A DNA stretch of 50,168 bases from Pseudobdellovibrionaceae bacterium (lineage in GTDB: Bacteria > Bdellovibrionota > Bdellovibrionia > Bdellovibrionales > JAMPXM01). The notes under the pieces were generated by a model, which saw only the letters and a program-made list of their open reading frames with translations, was not told the DNA's origin and made no database searches. Shown here piece by piece: positions 3,160-32,379 of the stretch. The stretch covers positions 1-50,168 of the forward strand of contig CANHQR010000019.1 in NCBI GenBank assembly GCA_947462815.1, given 5' to 3'. Position 1 is the stretch's first letter. Each line of letters starts with the position of its first letter. Position numbers and translations under genes: made by a program.

Positions 3160-4080
3160 ATGCAGAATCTTCTCCTCGAACTTTCGTTCAGAGATTTACA
3201 AATTCTCGAGAGCCTGAGCTCCGAGAGCAGCTTGCGCGCGATCTCAAGAAAGATTGGGCGTGAGCCTGCCGTGATTTCCAAGCGATTGGTGCAACTCGAA
3301 GAGATCTTTGGTTTTGAAATCGCCAAACGCTCGTCCAAGGGCTTCGTTCTGACCGGCGAGGGGAGCAAGATTTGCGCGGCGGCGAGCAGCGTCTTGTCGA
3401 CGAGCCAAGATCTCTTCGCTACGGGGTTTGAGAGACGAAAATCGAGATTCGCGAAGGTTCTCACGGTCGGAGGCCGGGGTTTTCTCAACATTCTTTTTTC
3501 GGAGACTTTGATTCGCGCGCAGAAAAGTATCGGCCTTGAATATCGGAATCGCTATATTGATCTTTCGCCCGAAGAACTCCGCCAGGCGGCTTTCGCGGGT
3601 GTGATCGATTTAGCTTTCCACTTGGAAGAAATGGAGTTCACTTCCTCCTGGAAGAGTGAACTCGTTGCGCCTTTGACTTGGAAACTATTCGCTCGGCGCG
3701 ATCATCCGCTCAAAAGTGTTTCCACCATTGAGCAGGCGCTCGAGTACCCCTTCATTGCGCCTCGATATTGGGACGGTCGAACCTTGGCGCTCGGTGAGGA
3801 TGGATTTCCCGTGCCGTGGAAACGGCGAATTCAAGGTCATGAAGCGCAAACAGCCTTCAATGCGATGCGAATCCTCAAATGTACAGATCACGTCGTTCTG
3901 CTGCCGACGCTACTTGCGCAGGACTGGATCATGAATGCCGAACTCAGACTCATCGAGCTGACAGACTTAAAGCCCATCGAGGCACATCTTTGGCTTTCGA
4001 TTCATAAAGACCGTGTGAGCCAGAAATTTCTCAATTCAGCACGCGAGCAAATCAAGCGCCAGGTCGAAAAGAATTCTTAG
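3160..4080 (+). CDS. LysR-family transcriptional regulator
   Basis: The 306-residue protein has the LysR length and layout. An N-terminal winged helix-turn-helix covers about residues 8-66: L-x-I-L-E-S-L-S-S-E-S-S-L-R-A, then I-G-R-E-P-A-V-I-S-K-R-L-x-x-L-E, F-E-I and L-T-G-E-G. A periplasmic-binding-protein-like effector domain follows at about 90-300. The ligand cannot be predicted. LysR regulators often control the divergent neighbour and themselves; the neighbour here is the fasciclin gene. The aceBA operon downstream is another conceivable target but is separated by about 300 bases and a facing terminator. ATG 3160 was taken because it begins the family-like sequence; no strong ribosome-binding site is visible. 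Confidence 0.9.
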   Translation: MQNLLLELSFRDLQILESLSSESSLRAISRKIGREPAVISKRLVQLEEIFGFEIAKRSSKGFVLTGEGSKICAAASSVLSTSQDLFATGFERRKSRFAKVLTVGGRGFLNILFSETLIRAQKSIGLEYRNRYIDLSPEELRQAAFAGVIDLAFHLEEMEFTSSWKSELVAPLTWKLFARRDHPLKSVSTIEQALEYPFIAPRYWDGRTLALGEDGFPVPWKRRIQGHEAQTAFNAMRILKCTDHVVLLPTLLAQDWIMNAELRLIELTDLKPIEAHLWLSIHKDRVSQKFLNSAREQIKRQVEKNS

Positions 4081-9999: not shown

Positions 10000-11370
10000 T
10001 CAACGGATTTCCGTGAGCGGTTCGCAGAATCGAACCTGCGTCCTCGCGCAACCTGTCGTTTGATCCGATCTGCACCAGGCACGCACTTCGGTTTTCCACA
10101 AACGTGTGTTCTGACAGCTGAGGCCCATCGACTGATCGTCATCGTCCGGATCTCCGTCCGCACTCGGAGTGGCGACATCGGCTCCAGCGCTCGGGCCCGA
10201 GAGTTGACGCGAGCGGCGCTCACGAACTTCAGCGGCGGCGCGATCGAGAAGTTCAGCGACCTCGCCCAACTGCACATCCAAGGAGATTCCGTAGGCGCTG
10301 GCCTCCAGTGCATCGAGGTCTGAGGTGCGTAAGGAGCGTCGCACGACCTTTCCCCCGACGGTACCTTCCATGACGTACGCACCGGGCAAGAGAGCGACAG
10401 ATTGTTGTCCGTTCAGCGGTGCTGCGATCAACTGCTTGAGCAAGCGAATCGGAAAGGCATCGCCTGGCGACTGCACGGAAAACTGTGTGCCGGTGCCATT
10501 GGCACGCAGGTCAAAGAGCTCATTGACCGCAAAAGCATGTCGCAAGTTCCACACCCTGCAGAGGCGATCGGCGCGCAGCGAGAGCTCGGGACGTCGCTCG
10601 CGTTCGCAGATCTTGTAGCTCGGATTGGGAACCGCGTCCGTCAGAGGGAAGCGACGCAAATAGTGATCGCCGAAATCATACTCGGCCACCGAGAAGAATC
10701 TTTCACCTGACGCAAAGGTCGCCCACATGAGCTTTCGCTGTTCTGCAGGATGGTTGAGATCCCGGAACACCTTGATGGGCGTTTCCGATCGTTGCAATTC
10801 GCGCGGCACACCCACGCGCTGCAAGTCCAGACGAGTGAGCTGGTCAGCTCGCACATGCACAAATCCCGGCTGCAACATATTCTCGAATCCAACGAGGTAG
10901 CTGCCTTCTGGGACTTCGGTTTCCGTATTGAGATCAAAGAAGATCGGGTTGAAACAGCGGCTTCGCTGTGGACGGAATGTTTGCGAGGCGAATAACCCCG
11001 CCGAGGCGACTTCAATTTCACAGCGCATAATCTTCACGCGCTTAAAGAGTTGCGTTTCGCCCGCTTGGCCCGCCACGAGGAGGCGGCCTTTCGCACGGAC
11101 TTCGGTCTCTTCAAGCAAAAATCGCGAGCTACGTTGCGTGCGGGCTTCATATTCTTCCATCATCATGTGGCGCGCAGCGGGATTGAGATCGGGACTTCCA
11201 CTCGCATGGGCGAGCGAGAGCGGCCATAGACCCAGTGCGCTCACTGCCGCAAAGGCCCATGCGGTGAGGCTTCGGTTTTGAGTCGGCGCTCGCCCCGCAA
11301 CACGGGCAGTCATACGGCCATTGAGACGTAATGAAGTCATTAAAGCTGAAGTCCGTAAATTAGAATTCAC
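10000..11370 (-). CDS. Large exported hypothetical protein
   Basis: The start is taken as GTG 11370, which overlaps the upstream transpeptidase gene by 11 bases and has GGAGG five bases ahead; ATG 11340 is the alternative. The 456-residue product has a basic N-terminus and a hydrophobic segment at about 35-55 ending in S-L-A-H-A, a likely signal peptide. The mature region contains beta-rich units such as V-P-E-G-S-Y-L-V-G-F-E and L-L-P-G-A-Y-V-M-E-G, and a Cys-rich end (S-C-Q-N-T, W-C-R-S, G-C-A-R, F-C-E). An acidic low-complexity patch (DPDDDD) precedes that end. I recognise no family. Coupling to the transpeptidase suggests a cell-envelope role. Confidence 0.8.
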   Translation of the reverse strand: MNSNLRTSALMTSLRLNGRMTARVAGRAPTQNRSLTAWAFAAVSALGLWPLSLAHASGSPDLNPAARHMMMEEYEARTQRSSRFLLEETEVRAKGRLLVAGQAGETQLFKRVKIMRCEIEVASAGLFASQTFRPQRSRCFNPIFFDLNTETEVPEGSYLVGFENMLQPGFVHVRADQLTRLDLQRVGVPRELQRSETPIKVFRDLNHPAEQRKLMWATFASGERFFSVAEYDFGDHYLRRFPLTDAVPNPSYKICERERRPELSLRADRLCRVWNLRHAFAVNELFDLRANGTGTQFSVQSPGDAFPIRLLKQLIAAPLNGQQSVALLPGAYVMEGTVGGKVVRRSLRTSDLDALEASAYGISLDVQLGEVAELLDRAAAEVRERRSRQLSGPSAGADVATPSADGDPDDDDQSMGLSCQNTRLWKTEVRAWCRSDQTTGCARTQVRFCEPLTEIR

Positions 11371-13210
11371 TTTGGCCTCCGGCGTTCACGTTGAGCGGCT
11401 GCATGAGCTGCAGGATTCGACCATCTTGCCCGTAAGAATCAGGAGCAAATTTGACCCTTGTGAGCCCGCCTTCAGTCGGCACTTCGACGGTGAAAAAGCC
11501 GATGTACACAGAAACCTGCTCGCGAAGGTCAATTTTGAAGTCGGGGCTCTCCAGCGGCCTCGACCAGAAATCTTGAATGCGCTCGGCTGTCCACTCGGGT
11601 TGATCGCGCAGCAAGTAGAGCGCAAAGCGCAGCGGATCTTCGAGTCGGATACAGCCTGAGGAGAACTGGCGAACACTCTTGGGGAAGTCTTCACGATGAG
11701 GCGTATCGTGGAGATAGATAGCCCGCGAATTCGTGAGATTGAACTTCACCTGGCCCAAAGAGTTGTGCGGACCGGGATCCTGACGGAAGTAAAAGGGCAG
11801 ATGCTGAATGCTGAACTGGCGCCAGTTGATTCGCGTCGGATCCACCTCTTGCCCGCGCAAATCGAAAACACGAATGCCGATCTCTTGAGCGCCCCGTAGA
11901 TTGGTGGCGAACTTCGGTACCAGGTCTTTGGCGGCGATGGAGGCTGGCGCACTCCAATAGGGATTGAGGCGAATGTCGGTGAAGCGATCCACCAGCGTGG
12001 GAGTGCGACGGAGAACTCGACCGATCACCGTCTTCATCCGGAGAACTTCGCGATCGCCTTCGACCGCGGCCAATTCTTGATGAGCGGTGTTGACGAATAC
12101 ATGTCGGTTCGCAAGTTGGGTCGGCATCCATCGCCACCGCTCCATATTCACGCGGACTTGTTGAATGCGCTGTGCGAGCGTGGTGTTGAGAGCTGCGAAA
12201 GCTCGCGGTCCGATCACGCCGTCTGGCTCGAGCTTATGCCGAGTCTGAAAGTCCTGGACGATCGCCACCAAGGCTGGATCGTAAACAGCTGAGGTGAGAT
12301 CGCTTGGATTCGCACCGCCGTAGCCGAGATCGGCCAGGCGTTGACGAATCTGAGGCACAACTCGATGTGTGACACCGGGGCGAAGGGTCTCGCGAGCATC
12401 GATGGGCCGAAAGCGCTCAGCCGGGGTTTCGCGAAGGGACTTGAGCAGATCGCGCAAGCGTCGATAGGCGAGGTGCTTCGGCTCGAGTTCATCCAGAGTC
12501 GCCTGGAGCTGACCGCGGCTCAGTCCAGCGGCCAGAATCTCATACTCCCGAAACGGACGACGAGTCAGATCAGTTTCGTCGTCGACAAGCTTCGGATCGA
12601 CGCGCCCATGAGCTGCATGCGAAGCTAAACGCACAAGGCCTTGCGCGAGGCTCAGCTCCATTTCAAGAGCTTCTTGAGCTGGCATTTCACCTGTGGTGGC
12701 GAGTTTCTGAATGTCGGCGAGTCGCGCATTCCAGTAATCTTCAGTTTGTAGACCTCGCAAGGGTGCGCTCTGGAGCGCCGCAAGTACGAGATTTCCTTCG
12801 TTGGTCAGTTGATAAAGGCCCAAGGTGTTGCGAATCACGAACAACGGGCGATCGGGTAGAGCTCGCGTCGCCACATACAAAGGACGAATCAGGGAGGTCT
12901 CGACCGCCAGGCCGCCCACCACTTGGGCCTGAGACCTTTGCATCATTTGAAAGAGAATCGGACGGATATCCGTGTTCGCTGATAGATTCGTGGCCGAGAG
13001 ATTTTGACCAGCGAGCGGCTGCAAGGCGAGAGGTTCGCCAGGTCCTTGTGTTGGAGGCGTTTGGGCTGAGGCCATTCCCGTCCAGACGAAGAGAGCCGCG
13101 AGCAATCCGACGCCGATCAGGCGGGACAGCTCGTGCCGATCGCGAGTCCCCCAGATCTGTGGCTTTGAGATCTGATGATTCGACTTCTTGCTCGCCAGCG
13201 AATGAAACAT
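11360..13210 (-). CDS. L,D-transpeptidase, YcbB (LdtD)-like
   Basis: Forms or exchanges meso-DAP to meso-DAP crosslinks in peptidoglycan. The 616-residue protein starts at ATG 13210 behind GAGGAGACCTT. It has a signal anchor at about residues 30-49 (VGLLAALFVWTGMASA). A peptidoglycan-binding-1 type motif follows (V-Q-D-F-Q-T-R-H-x-L-E-P-D-G-V-I-G), then the YkuD catalytic domain. The active-site block is H-D-T-P-H-R ... F-S-S-G-C-I-R-L-E-D-P, with the nucleophile Cys at about residue 520. Domain order and size match E. coli YcbB/LdtD. It leads a leftward run of exported-protein genes and overlaps the next by 11 bases. Its 5' side is a 1-kb region without genes. Confidence 0.95.
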   Translation of the reverse strand: MFHSLASKKSNHQISKPQIWGTRDRHELSRLIGVGLLAALFVWTGMASAQTPPTQGPGEPLALQPLAGQNLSATNLSANTDIRPILFQMMQRSQAQVVGGLAVETSLIRPLYVATRALPDRPLFVIRNTLGLYQLTNEGNLVLAALQSAPLRGLQTEDYWNARLADIQKLATTGEMPAQEALEMELSLAQGLVRLASHAAHGRVDPKLVDDETDLTRRPFREYEILAAGLSRGQLQATLDELEPKHLAYRRLRDLLKSLRETPAERFRPIDARETLRPGVTHRVVPQIRQRLADLGYGGANPSDLTSAVYDPALVAIVQDFQTRHKLEPDGVIGPRAFAALNTTLAQRIQQVRVNMERWRWMPTQLANRHVFVNTAHQELAAVEGDREVLRMKTVIGRVLRRTPTLVDRFTDIRLNPYWSAPASIAAKDLVPKFATNLRGAQEIGIRVFDLRGQEVDPTRINWRQFSIQHLPFYFRQDPGPHNSLGQVKFNLTNSRAIYLHDTPHREDFPKSVRQFSSGCIRLEDPLRFALYLLRDQPEWTAERIQDFWSRPLESPDFKIDLREQVSVYIGFFTVEVPTEGGLTRVKFAPDSYGQDGRILQLMQPLNVNAGGQSEF

Positions 13211-13649
13211 AAGGTCTCCTCAAAGCTTCATGACGACGAACTCTCGTCTTGCGAGAATCGCCGCAAAGCGTTTTGCTGCCCTCAAAATTCTCGAAACCAT
13301 CGACCGTCAGGGGTGAAGTCGGGGCAAGCTTTGGACCGATGCTGGTATGAAGCTATTTCTAAGCTGGCGATGAGGGGTGACGTTTTCAGGCGCTTTATCG
13401 AGATCGCGAGCGTGATTTGGTCACTGAAACTGAGCCGGATTTTGAAGTTCGTGAATTTCGCAAGTTGCGAAGTCAGCAGGGAAATTTCGTAAAGTGGGTC
13501 ACTTGATTGTGCTGACCCAAATCCATTTCGCTCGCCCGAAGCAGGTCGGCGTCTCTTCGCCGGGTCCATTCGAGTCTCTACAAATGAGATGAGTTGGAGA
13601 CCGCTCGACGTGATTTCGGATGGTCGAGCACACTCAAAGGGCCCAGGTT
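13211..13649. other. Gene-free leader region upstream of the L,D-transpeptidase
   Basis: No frame here has recognisable content or a convincing ribosome-binding site. The stretch is more AT-rich than its surroundings and presumably carries the promoter of the leftward transpeptidase operon. The only clear structure is the palindrome at 13457-13471, listed separately. Confidence 0.5.
13457..13471. promoter_or_regulatory. Palindrome TTCGCAA-G-TTGCGAA, candidate operator
   Basis: A perfect 7-bp inverted repeat with a 1-base spacer lies about 250 bases upstream of the transpeptidase start. Just beside it is a partly matching half-site (AAATTTCGTAAAG against GAATTTCGCAAG). The arrangement suits a dimeric regulator, but the regulator is unknown. 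Confidence 0.35.
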
Positions 13650-13694
13650 AAAAAATTTTAGCCCGATCATCGAGGTCGTGGCGATGATCGGGCT
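13650..13694 (-). terminator. Candidate terminator at the end of the structured RNA
   Basis: AGCCCGATCATCG (13660-13672) and CGATGATCGGGCT (13682-13694) form a perfect 13-bp stem with a 9-base loop. On the minus strand it is followed by AAAATTTTTT. The four A residues before the T run make it slightly unusual. Confidence 0.65.
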
Positions 13695-13710
13695 CGTCAC
13701 CCGCCGCTGT

Positions 13711-13743
13711 GTGTGGTCCCGCCCTCGTTTTTTATTCCGAGTC
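13711..13743. repeat. 33-bp direct repeat, copy 1
   Basis: Identical to 13827-13859, with starts 116 bases apart. That distance is not a multiple of three, so the pair is not a protein repeat. The copy forms the loop of a hairpin closed by CGCTGTG/CACAGCG. Confidence 0.9.
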
Positions 13744-13826
13744 ACAGCGACAGATTTTTTAAAGACAAAGAAAGTCGGGCCCTGCCACCCAGGTCGTGTA
13801 GGCAACCGGGCCCTATCAGTACGGCG

Positions 13827-13859
13827 GTGTGGTCCCGCCCTCGTTTTTTATTCCGAGTC
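13827..13859. repeat. 33-bp direct repeat, copy 2
   Basis: Identical to 13711-13743. Here it lies inside a hairpin closed by the unrelated 9-bp stem TCAGTACGG/CCGTACTGA. Confidence 0.9.
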
Positions 13860-13885
13860 CACCGTACTGACAGGACTGAAACTAC

Positions 13886-14213
13886 AGGTGTCTGGATTTT
13901 TACGCATGGAACATCGATGAACGTGTTTTCAGTTTTTCAGCGAATTTTCGTGCTGTCTTTGGGCTAACACCTGACCAGAGAATGGACAGTGTTTCGGCTT
14001 GAGGCCTCAGTCTGAGACGAATGATGACCCAACTAAGTCTTTGATATCGGCAGGTTTTCTCAAAGTGAGATCGTTCGCGTCTCAGAGCTGGCCGCGGCGT
14101 CTCGCGGCCTCAGGATTGCTCCCCTCAAAGCGTGGGAACCGAAGTGAAAAGGACGCTCGAAACGCGTGCCGATCACTCTTCAGAGTCTTTATCAACAGCG
14201 AGAGGAAGAACAT
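13886..14213. other. Intergenic region, no feature recognised
   Basis: Between the candidate RNA and the next rightward gene I see no convincing gene, repeat or hairpin. Promoters for the rightward gene at 14214, and possibly for the leftward RNA, would have to lie here. Confidence 0.5.
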
Positions 14214-15494
14214 ATGCGGCTGCAGAAACGAACCAAGACAGCGAACGGGTGTGAGATCGTGTCGCCGATTTCTGTGCATTCGCTCTCTGAGCCCGTGCTT
14301 CGAATCGCGTTGTTAGGTATGGCCGTCGCGCTCGGACTTGTTCACTCCAATGTGGTTGCCGAACAGCGAGTCCCCACGTCCAGTATCGCGAGAAGCTTTC
14401 AACTCTCGAGCTGCGGCACAGAGCGACTGCATCCACCCATCGACCCTCGTCAGACCGCCGAATATGCACAGATGCGCGATGCTTACGAAACCATCTTCTC
14501 TTCGACGCAAGTTGGGCGTGCGATTTGTCATCGAATGGCACCTTCGACAGACGTGTTGCGAATCTCAGGCGTATTTTCTGAACGCCTGCAGGAGCTGCAG
14601 CGCGAGTGCGAGACTCGAGACGTCTCGGGCGAAAATTGGATCCGACTTGAGGCACCTCGCCGCGAGTCGAATCCCGACACTTGCGGCGAGTCCTACGAGT
14701 CGGTGCAAGCCTCCATTCCTCGCAATCTCTCACCGCAACAGTTCCGAGACATCGTTCGACAACTGAGCCGGCCGGAGGCCTCGGGCCAATATGATTTACC
14801 TCGCAATATCGAGTTTGTCCGCGCACCGCGAGGCCATGTGGTGGAAAGCTGGTCGGCAGGTCGAACACTCACGATCTTTGTTCCGCCCGAGGGCCTCTCT
14901 TCGGAGGCGGCCCTGCGGATCGCGGCCCATGAGCTCGCTGTGCATCTCGATGCGAAAGCAGACTTCGAGCACGGGATTTCCCTCGATGCGAGCTTGCGGG
15001 CGAATGATCCAGAGCGCGTTCGCCAGGTGTTGAGGTCAAGCCCTCTGCTGGGCCCAGCGTTCGCCGCGATTCGCGCGTATCGAGTTGAAGAGCGAATTCT
15101 CAGACAGGCGAATCCGCAAGCGCAAGATGAACGGACGCGGCGTCTGCGCCGCTTGGTGAATGAGATTCGCGATGCCGACAGTTGCCGGCGTGTGGTGGCG
15201 GAGGTCGCCGATCTTTTGGCACCCTCGACGCAGCTTTTCCGCAACGGCAGTCAGAGTTGCGAAGTGCTGAGCCCCGAGCAGATCCGAGAAGAGTCGCGTC
15301 GCGTGCGATCGGCGATTCGCGATCTGAACGGACTTCACTTCCGCACACTGCAAACGGATGAATTTTACTCAGCTCGAAGTGGTCCAGCCACAGGTCAAGA
15401 CGCATGCTTGTTTCTGGTGGAACCTGAACTGACAAACGCCAATCGCGCTCGAAGCGATGGCCCTTCCCCCGGAACTGGTCGCTTACCGCCTTAA
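14214..15494 (+). CDS. Exported protein with an HExxxH motif, unknown
   Basis: ATG 14214 follows GAGGAAGAACAT, a good ribosome-binding site, so it is preferred over 14166. The 426-residue product has a signal-like hydrophobic segment at about 29-47 ending in N-V-V-A-E. Near residue 239 is A-A-H-E-L-A-V-H-L-D-A-K, preceded by a beta strand (T-L-T-I-F-V-P-P). This resembles the helix of a zinc peptidase, but the two histidines are three residues apart from the Glu (HExxxH) instead of two (HExxH), so canonical metal binding is uncertain. Several cysteines are present. It may be a diverged peptidase or only a look-alike. The C-terminal tail is Pro/Gly-rich. Confidence 0.75.
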   Translation: MRLQKRTKTANGCEIVSPISVHSLSEPVLRIALLGMAVALGLVHSNVVAEQRVPTSSIARSFQLSSCGTERLHPPIDPRQTAEYAQMRDAYETIFSSTQVGRAICHRMAPSTDVLRISGVFSERLQELQRECETRDVSGENWIRLEAPRRESNPDTCGESYESVQASIPRNLSPQQFRDIVRQLSRPEASGQYDLPRNIEFVRAPRGHVVESWSAGRTLTIFVPPEGLSSEAALRIAAHELAVHLDAKADFEHGISLDASLRANDPERVRQVLRSSPLLGPAFAAIRAYRVEERILRQANPQAQDERTRRLRRLVNEIRDADSCRRVVAEVADLLAPSTQLFRNGSQSCEVLSPEQIREESRRVRSAIRDLNGLHFRTLQTDEFYSARSGPATGQDACLFLVEPELTNANRARSDGPSPGTGRLPP

Positions 15495-21411: not shown

Positions 21412-21791
21412 TTCGTGATCTCCTTAGAAGTTACACAGATTAGCAGTGACAATGATTAAACAGTTCGACTTAAAAATTGATGATGAGTTATCCACTGTGA
21501 GTTGATGACCAAAAAAGAGACTCTGTTGTCGAGGGCTCGGGGAGAGAGCAACGACCAGGAGTCTTTCCCTCTGTCGCGCCGATCACTTTCGATAAGCTCT
21601 TCAGCACCCCTCCTGCAGATCTCCGTTTCAATTCCTTATTCAAATCCTGATTCAAATCCTGATTCAAATCCTGATTCAAATCCTGATTCATTTACTGGTC
21701 CCAAGGTGCCAGATGTGAGTGGCGCGCACCAGCCTCGACGCCGAGCGGTTTACGCTTCCTTGGACGTGGTCCGCGCTGCTAGTCTTGCCCG
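21412..21791. other. Intergenic region with a short tandem repeat
   Basis: It should contain the divergent promoters of sodB and the PAP2 gene. Frames of 67 and 97 codons cross the repeat on the two strands, but outside the repeat they have no recognisable content. I see no gene here apart from the repeat listed separately. Confidence 0.5.
21639..21690. repeat. 12-bp tandem repeat, about 4.3 copies
   Basis: The unit TTCAAATCCTGA occurs four times without change, then partially. The period is a multiple of three, so frames across it give NQDL (minus) or NPDS-like (plus) tetrapeptides. It lies about 100 bases upstream of the PAP2 gene. Confidence 0.9.
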
Positions 21792-30882: not shown

Positions 30883-30927
30883 GAATGTCCTCTCCGTTGC
30901 GATCAAATCCCTAAGGATTATTTTAAT

Positions 30928-30983
30928 TTTAGTTTCTAATTCAGATTCTAATTTTCAGATTCTAATTTTCAGTTCTTAATTCT
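30928..30983. repeat. 14-bp AT-rich tandem repeat upstream of rpsN
   Basis: The unit CAGATTCTAATTTT occurs twice in perfect tandem (30942-30955 and 30956-30969), with degenerate copies on either side. The array is about 50 bases upstream of the rpsN start and very AT-rich. It could act as an upstream promoter element or a repeated binding site. Confidence 0.75.
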
Positions 30984-31031
30984 GTTTGTTCTTACGTCCA
31001 AAAAGCTCTCGAAAAAGTCGGTCCAAAACAT

Positions 31032-31104
31032 GTCGATCTCAAGCGCGTCGATCTCAAACACTTTCAAGTTCAGCACTTGCAAGTTCAGCACTTGCAAGTT
31101 CAGG
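31032..31104. repeat. 15-bp-period tandem repeats downstream of a stop codon
   Basis: GTCGATCTCAA recurs 15 bases apart (31032 and 31047). Then CAAGTTCAGCACTTG occurs twice in tandem (31065-31094) with a partial third copy. On the minus strand the period keeps frame and continues the reading frame of the neighbouring gene past its TGA, giving (A-E-L-A-S)-type units to a second stop. Confidence 0.8.
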
Positions 31105-31113
31105 TCGGCCACT

Positions 31114-32379
31114 TCAGGTCAACGTGGGCTCGGGGGTGAGAACCTCAAGCTCGCGACGGATCAAGACCTGTGGATCGGCCTCGATCCAGGTGTACTCAGC
31201 GTTAAACTCTTGCGCCAAGAACCCTGAAGCCAACGACGAGGTCGGTGTATTCATCGACGCCGAGTTCGACCACCGGGTCAAATTCGTCATGTTCGTCAGA
31301 GTTGAACTTTGTCGGCTCCGACCAAGTCCAGCACCTAACGAACTGCCCAAGGATCCGCTAAACGCTCCGCCTAAACTGCTGCCGTAACTTAAGCTGAGGG
31401 CTGACTCGGGCGCAAGCCCGCGAAATACTCCAGCAAAAGCCCCGAGATACTGGCTGATTTTACGTTCCGGGTCAAACCCTACGAGTTGATCGGCAAAGCC
31501 CTCGGGGCTCGCCAAAAGCACCCAGAGATCTCCGTCGCGGTTGAGAAGCGCGGTGCAGGCCTCCGCAGCCGGCCAAGGTGCCTGCAGGACCTGGATGAGG
31601 CCTGTATTGCAACTATATAAAATAACAGGGTTTTCAACAGCTTCACCCCGCCAGGTGGCGGTCTCGGGAACGAACATCACTTCCGTCGGCGAAAGCCTCG
31701 TCATGCAGCGAATGTGATCAACTTGCACGCCCTGGTGAGCGGCCAAGTGATTGAAGGTGTTGAGCAGCTGGCCCTTTAGGTCAAAGAAGGCGAGGCCACC
31801 GCGCTGATAGACTTCGGTTTTAAAGCCCCATCTCGCGGCCGAGCTGGGGTGGTAGGCCACAATCAGCATCCCGCCATGCATCGCCGCGATCTCCACGGGT
31901 GCTGCACCCAGATCAAAGCGCTCTTCGACTTGTCCGCGGCGATTGATGATCCAGGCGTTGGGGCCTTGCGCGGACTGAGGATGGGTGTCGACCAAGAGGA
32001 GGCGGCCGTCGGGGAGGGCGCGCAGGTGGGGAAAGTCGGGATTTTTCCAATCGGGTGGCAATTCAAAATGTTGGTTTTCAATGACCAAGAACTGTCCACG
32101 CTGATTGCCTTGAATCGACACCCATTCGCGACCACCCAGCGGCATCGAATCCCAATTCGACAGCGAATTCATCCAGGTGCTTCGCGGCGCGAGCGGGTCT
32201 GGATCGATGTCGAGCACAACACCGATATCCAAATCAAAGCGAATGGACCGAGCCCGCACGGGCACGGAGCTGATGCTGCGCCTTAGGGGGCGAAAGCCTC
32301 TGTTCATGCGACTCTTCTGGCGTCGCCTTGCACCAGCGTCAAGCGCCAAATACTTGCCGCCACCTCGTTGCGCGCTCAT
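31114..32379 (-). CDS. Hypothetical protein, possibly beta-propeller-like
   Basis: The first sensible start after lon is ATG 32379, 22 bases past the lon stop; an ATG at 32307 is an alternative. The product is about 421 residues, without a clear signal peptide. The middle contains repeated strand-turn units such as L-R-A-L-P-D-G-R-L-L-L-V-D-T-H, R-D-G-D-L-W-V-L-L-A and G-L-A-F-F-D-L-K-G-Q-L, as in beta-propeller proteins. A Ser/Gly/Leu low-complexity segment (G-S-S-L-G-G-A-F-S-G-S-L-G) lies near the C-terminus. No family is recognised with confidence. Its position right behind lon suggests co-transcription. Confidence 0.7.
   Translation of the reverse strand: MSAQRGGGKYLALDAGARRRQKSRMNRGFRPLRRSISSVPVRARSIRFDLDIGVVLDIDPDPLAPRSTWMNSLSNWDSMPLGGREWVSIQGNQRGQFLVIENQHFELPPDWKNPDFPHLRALPDGRLLLVDTHPQSAQGPNAWIINRRGQVEERFDLGAAPVEIAAMHGGMLIVAYHPSSAARWGFKTEVYQRGGLAFFDLKGQLLNTFNHLAAHQGVQVDHIRCMTRLSPTEVMFVPETATWRGEAVENPVILYSCNTGLIQVLQAPWPAAEACTALLNRDGDLWVLLASPEGFADQLVGFDPERKISQYLGAFAGVFRGLAPESALSLSYGSSLGGAFSGSLGSSLGAGLGRSRQSSTLTNMTNLTRWSNSASMNTPTSSLASGFLAQEFNAEYTWIEADPQVLIRRELEVLTPEPTLT

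Follow-up and report, generated by a model that had tools for sequence, protein, structure and literature searches.

The interval between two divergent genes in a 50,168-nt window (the whole stretch of DNA from a Pseudobdellovibrionaceae bacterium that was analysed) carries on its minus strand an array of four hairpins (13650-13876), two of which present an identical 31-nt core on stems of different sequence. The array very probably folds as a real RNA, seemingly a small regulatory RNA that has not been described, and no relative of it was found; most likely it is a lineage-specific sRNA that stands alone and carries one binding module in two identical copies. We give this reading, in which a leftward transcript of approximately 230-250 nt would use its two modules to trap or scaffold a protein or ligand, a probability of roughly 0.45. 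The features of the locus are as follows (minus-strand features in 5' to 3' order):

14166-15494, plus strand: rightward gene, family unknown
13810-13876, minus strand: hairpin B, 18-pair stem around the first (5') core copy
13828-13858, minus strand: core copy B, ACUCGGAAUAAAAAACGAGGGCGGGACCACA, 31 nt, consisting of an inner hairpin CUCG/CGAG with an A-rich 10-nt loop, then GGCGGGACCACA
13777-13813, minus strand: spacer hairpin, GGGCCC/GGGCCC plus an inner helix
13699-13755, minus strand: hairpin A, 13-pair stem around the second (3') core copy
13712-13742, minus strand: core copy A, the same 31 nt
13660-13694, minus strand: terminator-like hairpin, 13 bp, 9-nt loop
13650-13655, minus strand: T6 run 3' of the terminator-like hairpin, behind an AAAA spacer (13656-13659)
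13493-13649, no strand assigned: copy of a dispersed inverted-repeat element of about 150 bp, outside the RNA and bordering its 3' end
11360-13210, minus strand: L,D-transpeptidase gene with Scaffold, peptidoglycan-binding and YkuD (Pfam) domains

The twin sequence described in the first-pass annotation was confirmed: 33 nt are present in two exact copies at 13711-13743 and 13827-13859, 116 nt apart, in a gene-free stretch. No further copy with up to three mismatches was detected in the rest of the window (shuffles expect 0.00) or elsewhere in the 3.43-Mb assembly, which was searched as a whole; the array is single copy. The interval between the divergent genes contains no convincing open reading frame that could account for the array, and the core spacing of 116 nt is no multiple of 3. 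In the minus-strand direction, the array consists of hairpin B, the spacer hairpin (the third hairpin that had been noted between the copies, and which is indeed present), hairpin A, the 13-bp hairpin, AAAA and T6; the outermost bases of the spacer hairpin (13813-13777) compete with those of hairpin B. Within hairpins A and B the core shows zero differences between its copies, the inner helix CUCG/CGAG being identical as well, and both the A-rich loop GAAUAAAAAA and GGGCGGGACCAC are predicted to be largely single-stranded in either copy.

The stems around the cores, previously given as CGCTGTG/CACAGCG and TCAGTACGG/CCGTACTGA, are real and become longer when read on the minus strand: copy A is closed by 13 contiguous pairs and copy B by 18, each including three G-U pairs. 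For each of 49,868 positions of the minus strand, the uninterrupted pairs (G-U allowed) flanking a gap of 31 nt were counted; copy B and copy A ranked first and second. On the plus strand the stem of copy B stops after two pairs and that of copy A after seven, because all six non-Watson-Crick pairs of the two stems, which are G-U on the minus strand, become A-C. The same strand preference was seen in the folding energy of the array, i.e. −102.1 kcal/mol (z −5.97) on the minus strand compared with −81.2 kcal/mol (z −2.44) on the plus strand; when both strands of the window were tiled into 426 segments of 236 nt, the lowest z-score of all belonged to the minus-strand array (−6.17, a coarse ranking with 15 shuffles per segment). 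A reading of the hairpins as tandem terminators of the plus strand was rejected, as only copy B fits it.

Over most of their length the stem sequences of A and B differ, and pairing is retained throughout. A CUGUC is common to the 5' arm of both stems towards the base; its partner is GGCGG in hairpin A and GAUAG in hairpin B, and G-U and A-U changes keep the two arms paired. This is as expected for duplicated hairpins that diverge under a pairing constraint. From these sequences we read the array as hairpins that were probably duplicated and then diverged under pairing pressure, with stronger pressure on the core, the covariation being that between two paralogous copies only. The proposal that pairing was selected while the sequence changed is supported for the minus strand by the stem changes that preserve pairing, the G-U strand bias and the top-ranking z-score.

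As to the ends of the putative transcript, a consensus scan revealed no sigma-70 promoter upstream of the array; the best sites there, FliA-like (8/11) and sigma-70-like (8/12), are unconvincing. A leftward sRNA of about 230-250 nt would end at hairpin 13660-13694. Both the 13-bp stem and the T run that had been noted on the minus strand are present (hairpin 13660/13694 and T6), but they do not adjoin: the intervening AAAA weakens the assignment as a terminator, and it is the reason why this hairpin was not listed by the consensus terminator scan.

Such an sRNA would offer the same 31-nt module twice, on hairpins whose stems may vary as long as pairing holds. The conservation of the core alone, on changed stems, would mark the core as the functional part, and since the inner helix is identical in both copies besides the loops, the whole module would probably be recognised as a shape, rather than a loop seed alone. 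Most likely the sRNA would act in trans, binding a protein or ligand at two sites and perhaps trapping it, although the trans action and the binding partner are guesses on our side. It is possible, albeit at rather low odds, that the core constitutes an RNA module not described before, which binds a protein (as a recognition motif) or a ligand (as an aptamer of a new class), and that the stand-alone sRNA employs it twice as a two-site sponge. If transcribed, the array would represent an sRNA without relative in Rfam or the genomes searched, and its two copies would amount to an internal experiment of unusual clarity, the 31-base core being identical and the stems almost completely changed; the core would provide a short, testable bait for the partner.

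By analogy, a lineage-restricted stand-alone sRNA with a binding module would have a known precedent in merRNA of Bdellovibrio bacteriovorus, which is restricted to its lineage and carries its binding module without a downstream gene (PMC3627812). The array resembles merRNA and the APsRNAs of this species as a lineage-restricted structured sRNA (PMC3627812), but differs from them in the lack of a c-di-GMP aptamer (no Rfam match) and of a FliA promoter of the TTAAG-N16-CCGATA form: a candidate with CCGATA on the correct strand was dismissed, its −35 element being ATCTC and its overall agreement 7/11.

Next after the two-module trap or scaffold ranks a base-pairing sRNA with a duplicated seed (GAAUAAAAAA and/or GGGCGGGACCAC) that would address mRNA targets, possibly with Hfq, an alternative to which we give a minor share of the probability. 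Both segments are predicted to be largely unpaired in both copies, known sRNAs can bear duplicate seeds on different hairpins, and the A-rich loop of the core resembles the ARN repeats bound by the distal face of Hfq; the identity of the CUCG/CGAG helix, however, would not be needed for a seed alone. Somewhat less probable are tandem aptamers ahead of the L,D-transpeptidase gene, one of two functions proposed in the first-pass annotation; they would form a riboswitch in the leader of this gene, and hairpin 13660-13694 would be the terminator under its control. The array lies upstream of this YkuD-type gene (11360-13210) on the same strand. Aptamers typically combine a small conserved core with free stems, and some riboswitches occur as tandem copies; the array is like tandem riboswitches in its small conserved core, its variable closing stems, its two copies and the terminator-like hairpin that follows them. 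It is unlike them in that no family matches it, no gene follows closely downstream and no switch is visible: the terminator-like hairpin is located 440 nt before the start codon with an unrelated dispersed repeat (13493-13649) in between, its 5' arm finds weak and mixed partners, i.e. no clear antiterminator, in the transcript folded without the 3' arm, no Rfam match rises above chance, and the family genomes that contain transpeptidase homologues give no real match to the RNA model. The aptamer proposal is weak on account of the gap, the intervening repeat and the missing antiterminator pairing. The segment AGGGCGGGACCaC resembles AGGGUGGNACCGC of the T-box antiterminator bulge, but in contrast to a T-box the array has no specifier stem or pairing partner and repeats the motif twice; no Rfam T-box match to the array was obtained, even at an E-value of 10.

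A feature acting at the DNA level (a cruciform, a transposon end or a recombination site, attC-like or otherwise) is improbable, and so is a recent local duplication that left the array behind by chance. The dispersed inverted-repeat element adjoining the array could speak for it; against it stand the non-Watson-Crick pairs, which are all G-U on one strand, and the single-copy nature of the array, while a plain duplication would have copied the stems as well. In attC sites and IS200/605 ends the stem sequence is conserved, whereas conservation is limited to the core in the present case. Least probable is the other function proposed earlier, a decoy of the CsrB/RsmZ kind that sequesters CsrA/Rsm. 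The gene csrA, for which the first-pass annotation had suggested looking, was found in the same genome with 89.9 bits (G000:C102:1518-1673; gene span L058 1502-1729), and two GGA motifs are present in each core as claimed, but they are no commoner than composition predicts (5 in the array versus 4.8 expected). High affinity for CsrA is defined by an ANGGAX hexaloop carried on a stem (PMC4005645). In the array, 0/5 GGA sites stand in an ANGGA or AGGA context, and those of the cores are positioned where a helix meets its loop or in a 2-bp loop, never in a tight stem-borne loop; with the motif context absent, the count at expectation and the structural placement wrong, the decoy hypothesis fails the motif test and is not supported. 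Like the CsrB/RsmZ sRNAs, the array would be an RNA that stands alone and repeats its binding module from one hairpin to another, but it deviates from them in lacking ANGGA hexaloops, in having two modules only and in the large size (31 nt) of the module.

No relatives of the favored two-module sRNA were found. A covariance model built from both 45-nt hairpins was searched against the family, order, class and phylum (369 genomes, including all 13 of the family) and gave no real homologue and no homologue with covarying stems among the strongest matches. The other matches were few and weak; the strongest of them across the phylum are coding sequence and were rejected, namely a methionyl-tRNA synthetase gene (metG) in genome G001, genes resembling rhodanese in G007 and imidazolonepropionase in G224 (all three named from the translation) and a position within a coding frame in G010. 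No match was obtained with the covariance models of Rfam 15 at gathering score, and chance matches only at E-values of up to 10. BLAST matches to the array from 60 relatives and from the phage and plasmid collections proved to be A-rich or GC-rich scraps, and a gapped core pattern searched in about 85,000 species retrieved two matches, about the chance number, both devoid of stems. Neither the GTDB collection nor those of viruses, phages and plasmids yielded a real homologue; the further copies in related genomes and Rfam that a model of the two hairpins might have uncovered are absent as far as these collections reach. This absence argues only weakly against function, because the nearest genomes are distant: transpeptidase homologues within the family are only 34-38% identical. 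A homologue of the plus-strand neighbor (14166-15494) was not found in the family genomes. The array is an orphan, and the evidence from its two paralogous copies is not undone by this result.

The dispersed element that borders the array (13493-13649) was traced from a 27-nt match. It is approximately 145-155 bp long, its inverted ends TGGGCCACTTGATTGTGCT / TGGGCCCTTTGATTGTGCT point inward, and it has the look of a miniature inverted-repeat element; it is not part of the array. A pattern search of the genome retrieved 53 arms (reversed control: 0), 44 of which make up 22 pairs with a spacing of about 118-139 nt, the remaining nine being single arms, several of them near contig starts; 21 of the paired copies are located beyond the window on other contigs (e.g. 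L065, L071, L079, L088). Sixteen copies align over about 140 nt, with two that have little in common besides the ends, which are conserved even where the interior varies. In the 12 other family genomes the element is essentially absent, with six scattered matches at two mismatches only.

Three further stretches of the window showed repeats or strong predicted folds. The second-strongest folding z-score of the tiled segments (−5.83 with 15 shuffles; −3.32 for a longer stretch) belongs to 30917-31152 on the plus strand, a segment between genes with AT-rich repeats TTCTAATTTTCAGA and a repeated GCACTTGCAAGTTCA. A strong fold on both strands (z −4.8 and −3.7) was predicted for 3541-3776, inside a LysR-like regulator gene (3160-4080, name read from the translation), and a tandem 12-bp repeat, TTCAAATCCTGA, is present in several copies at 21627-21698.
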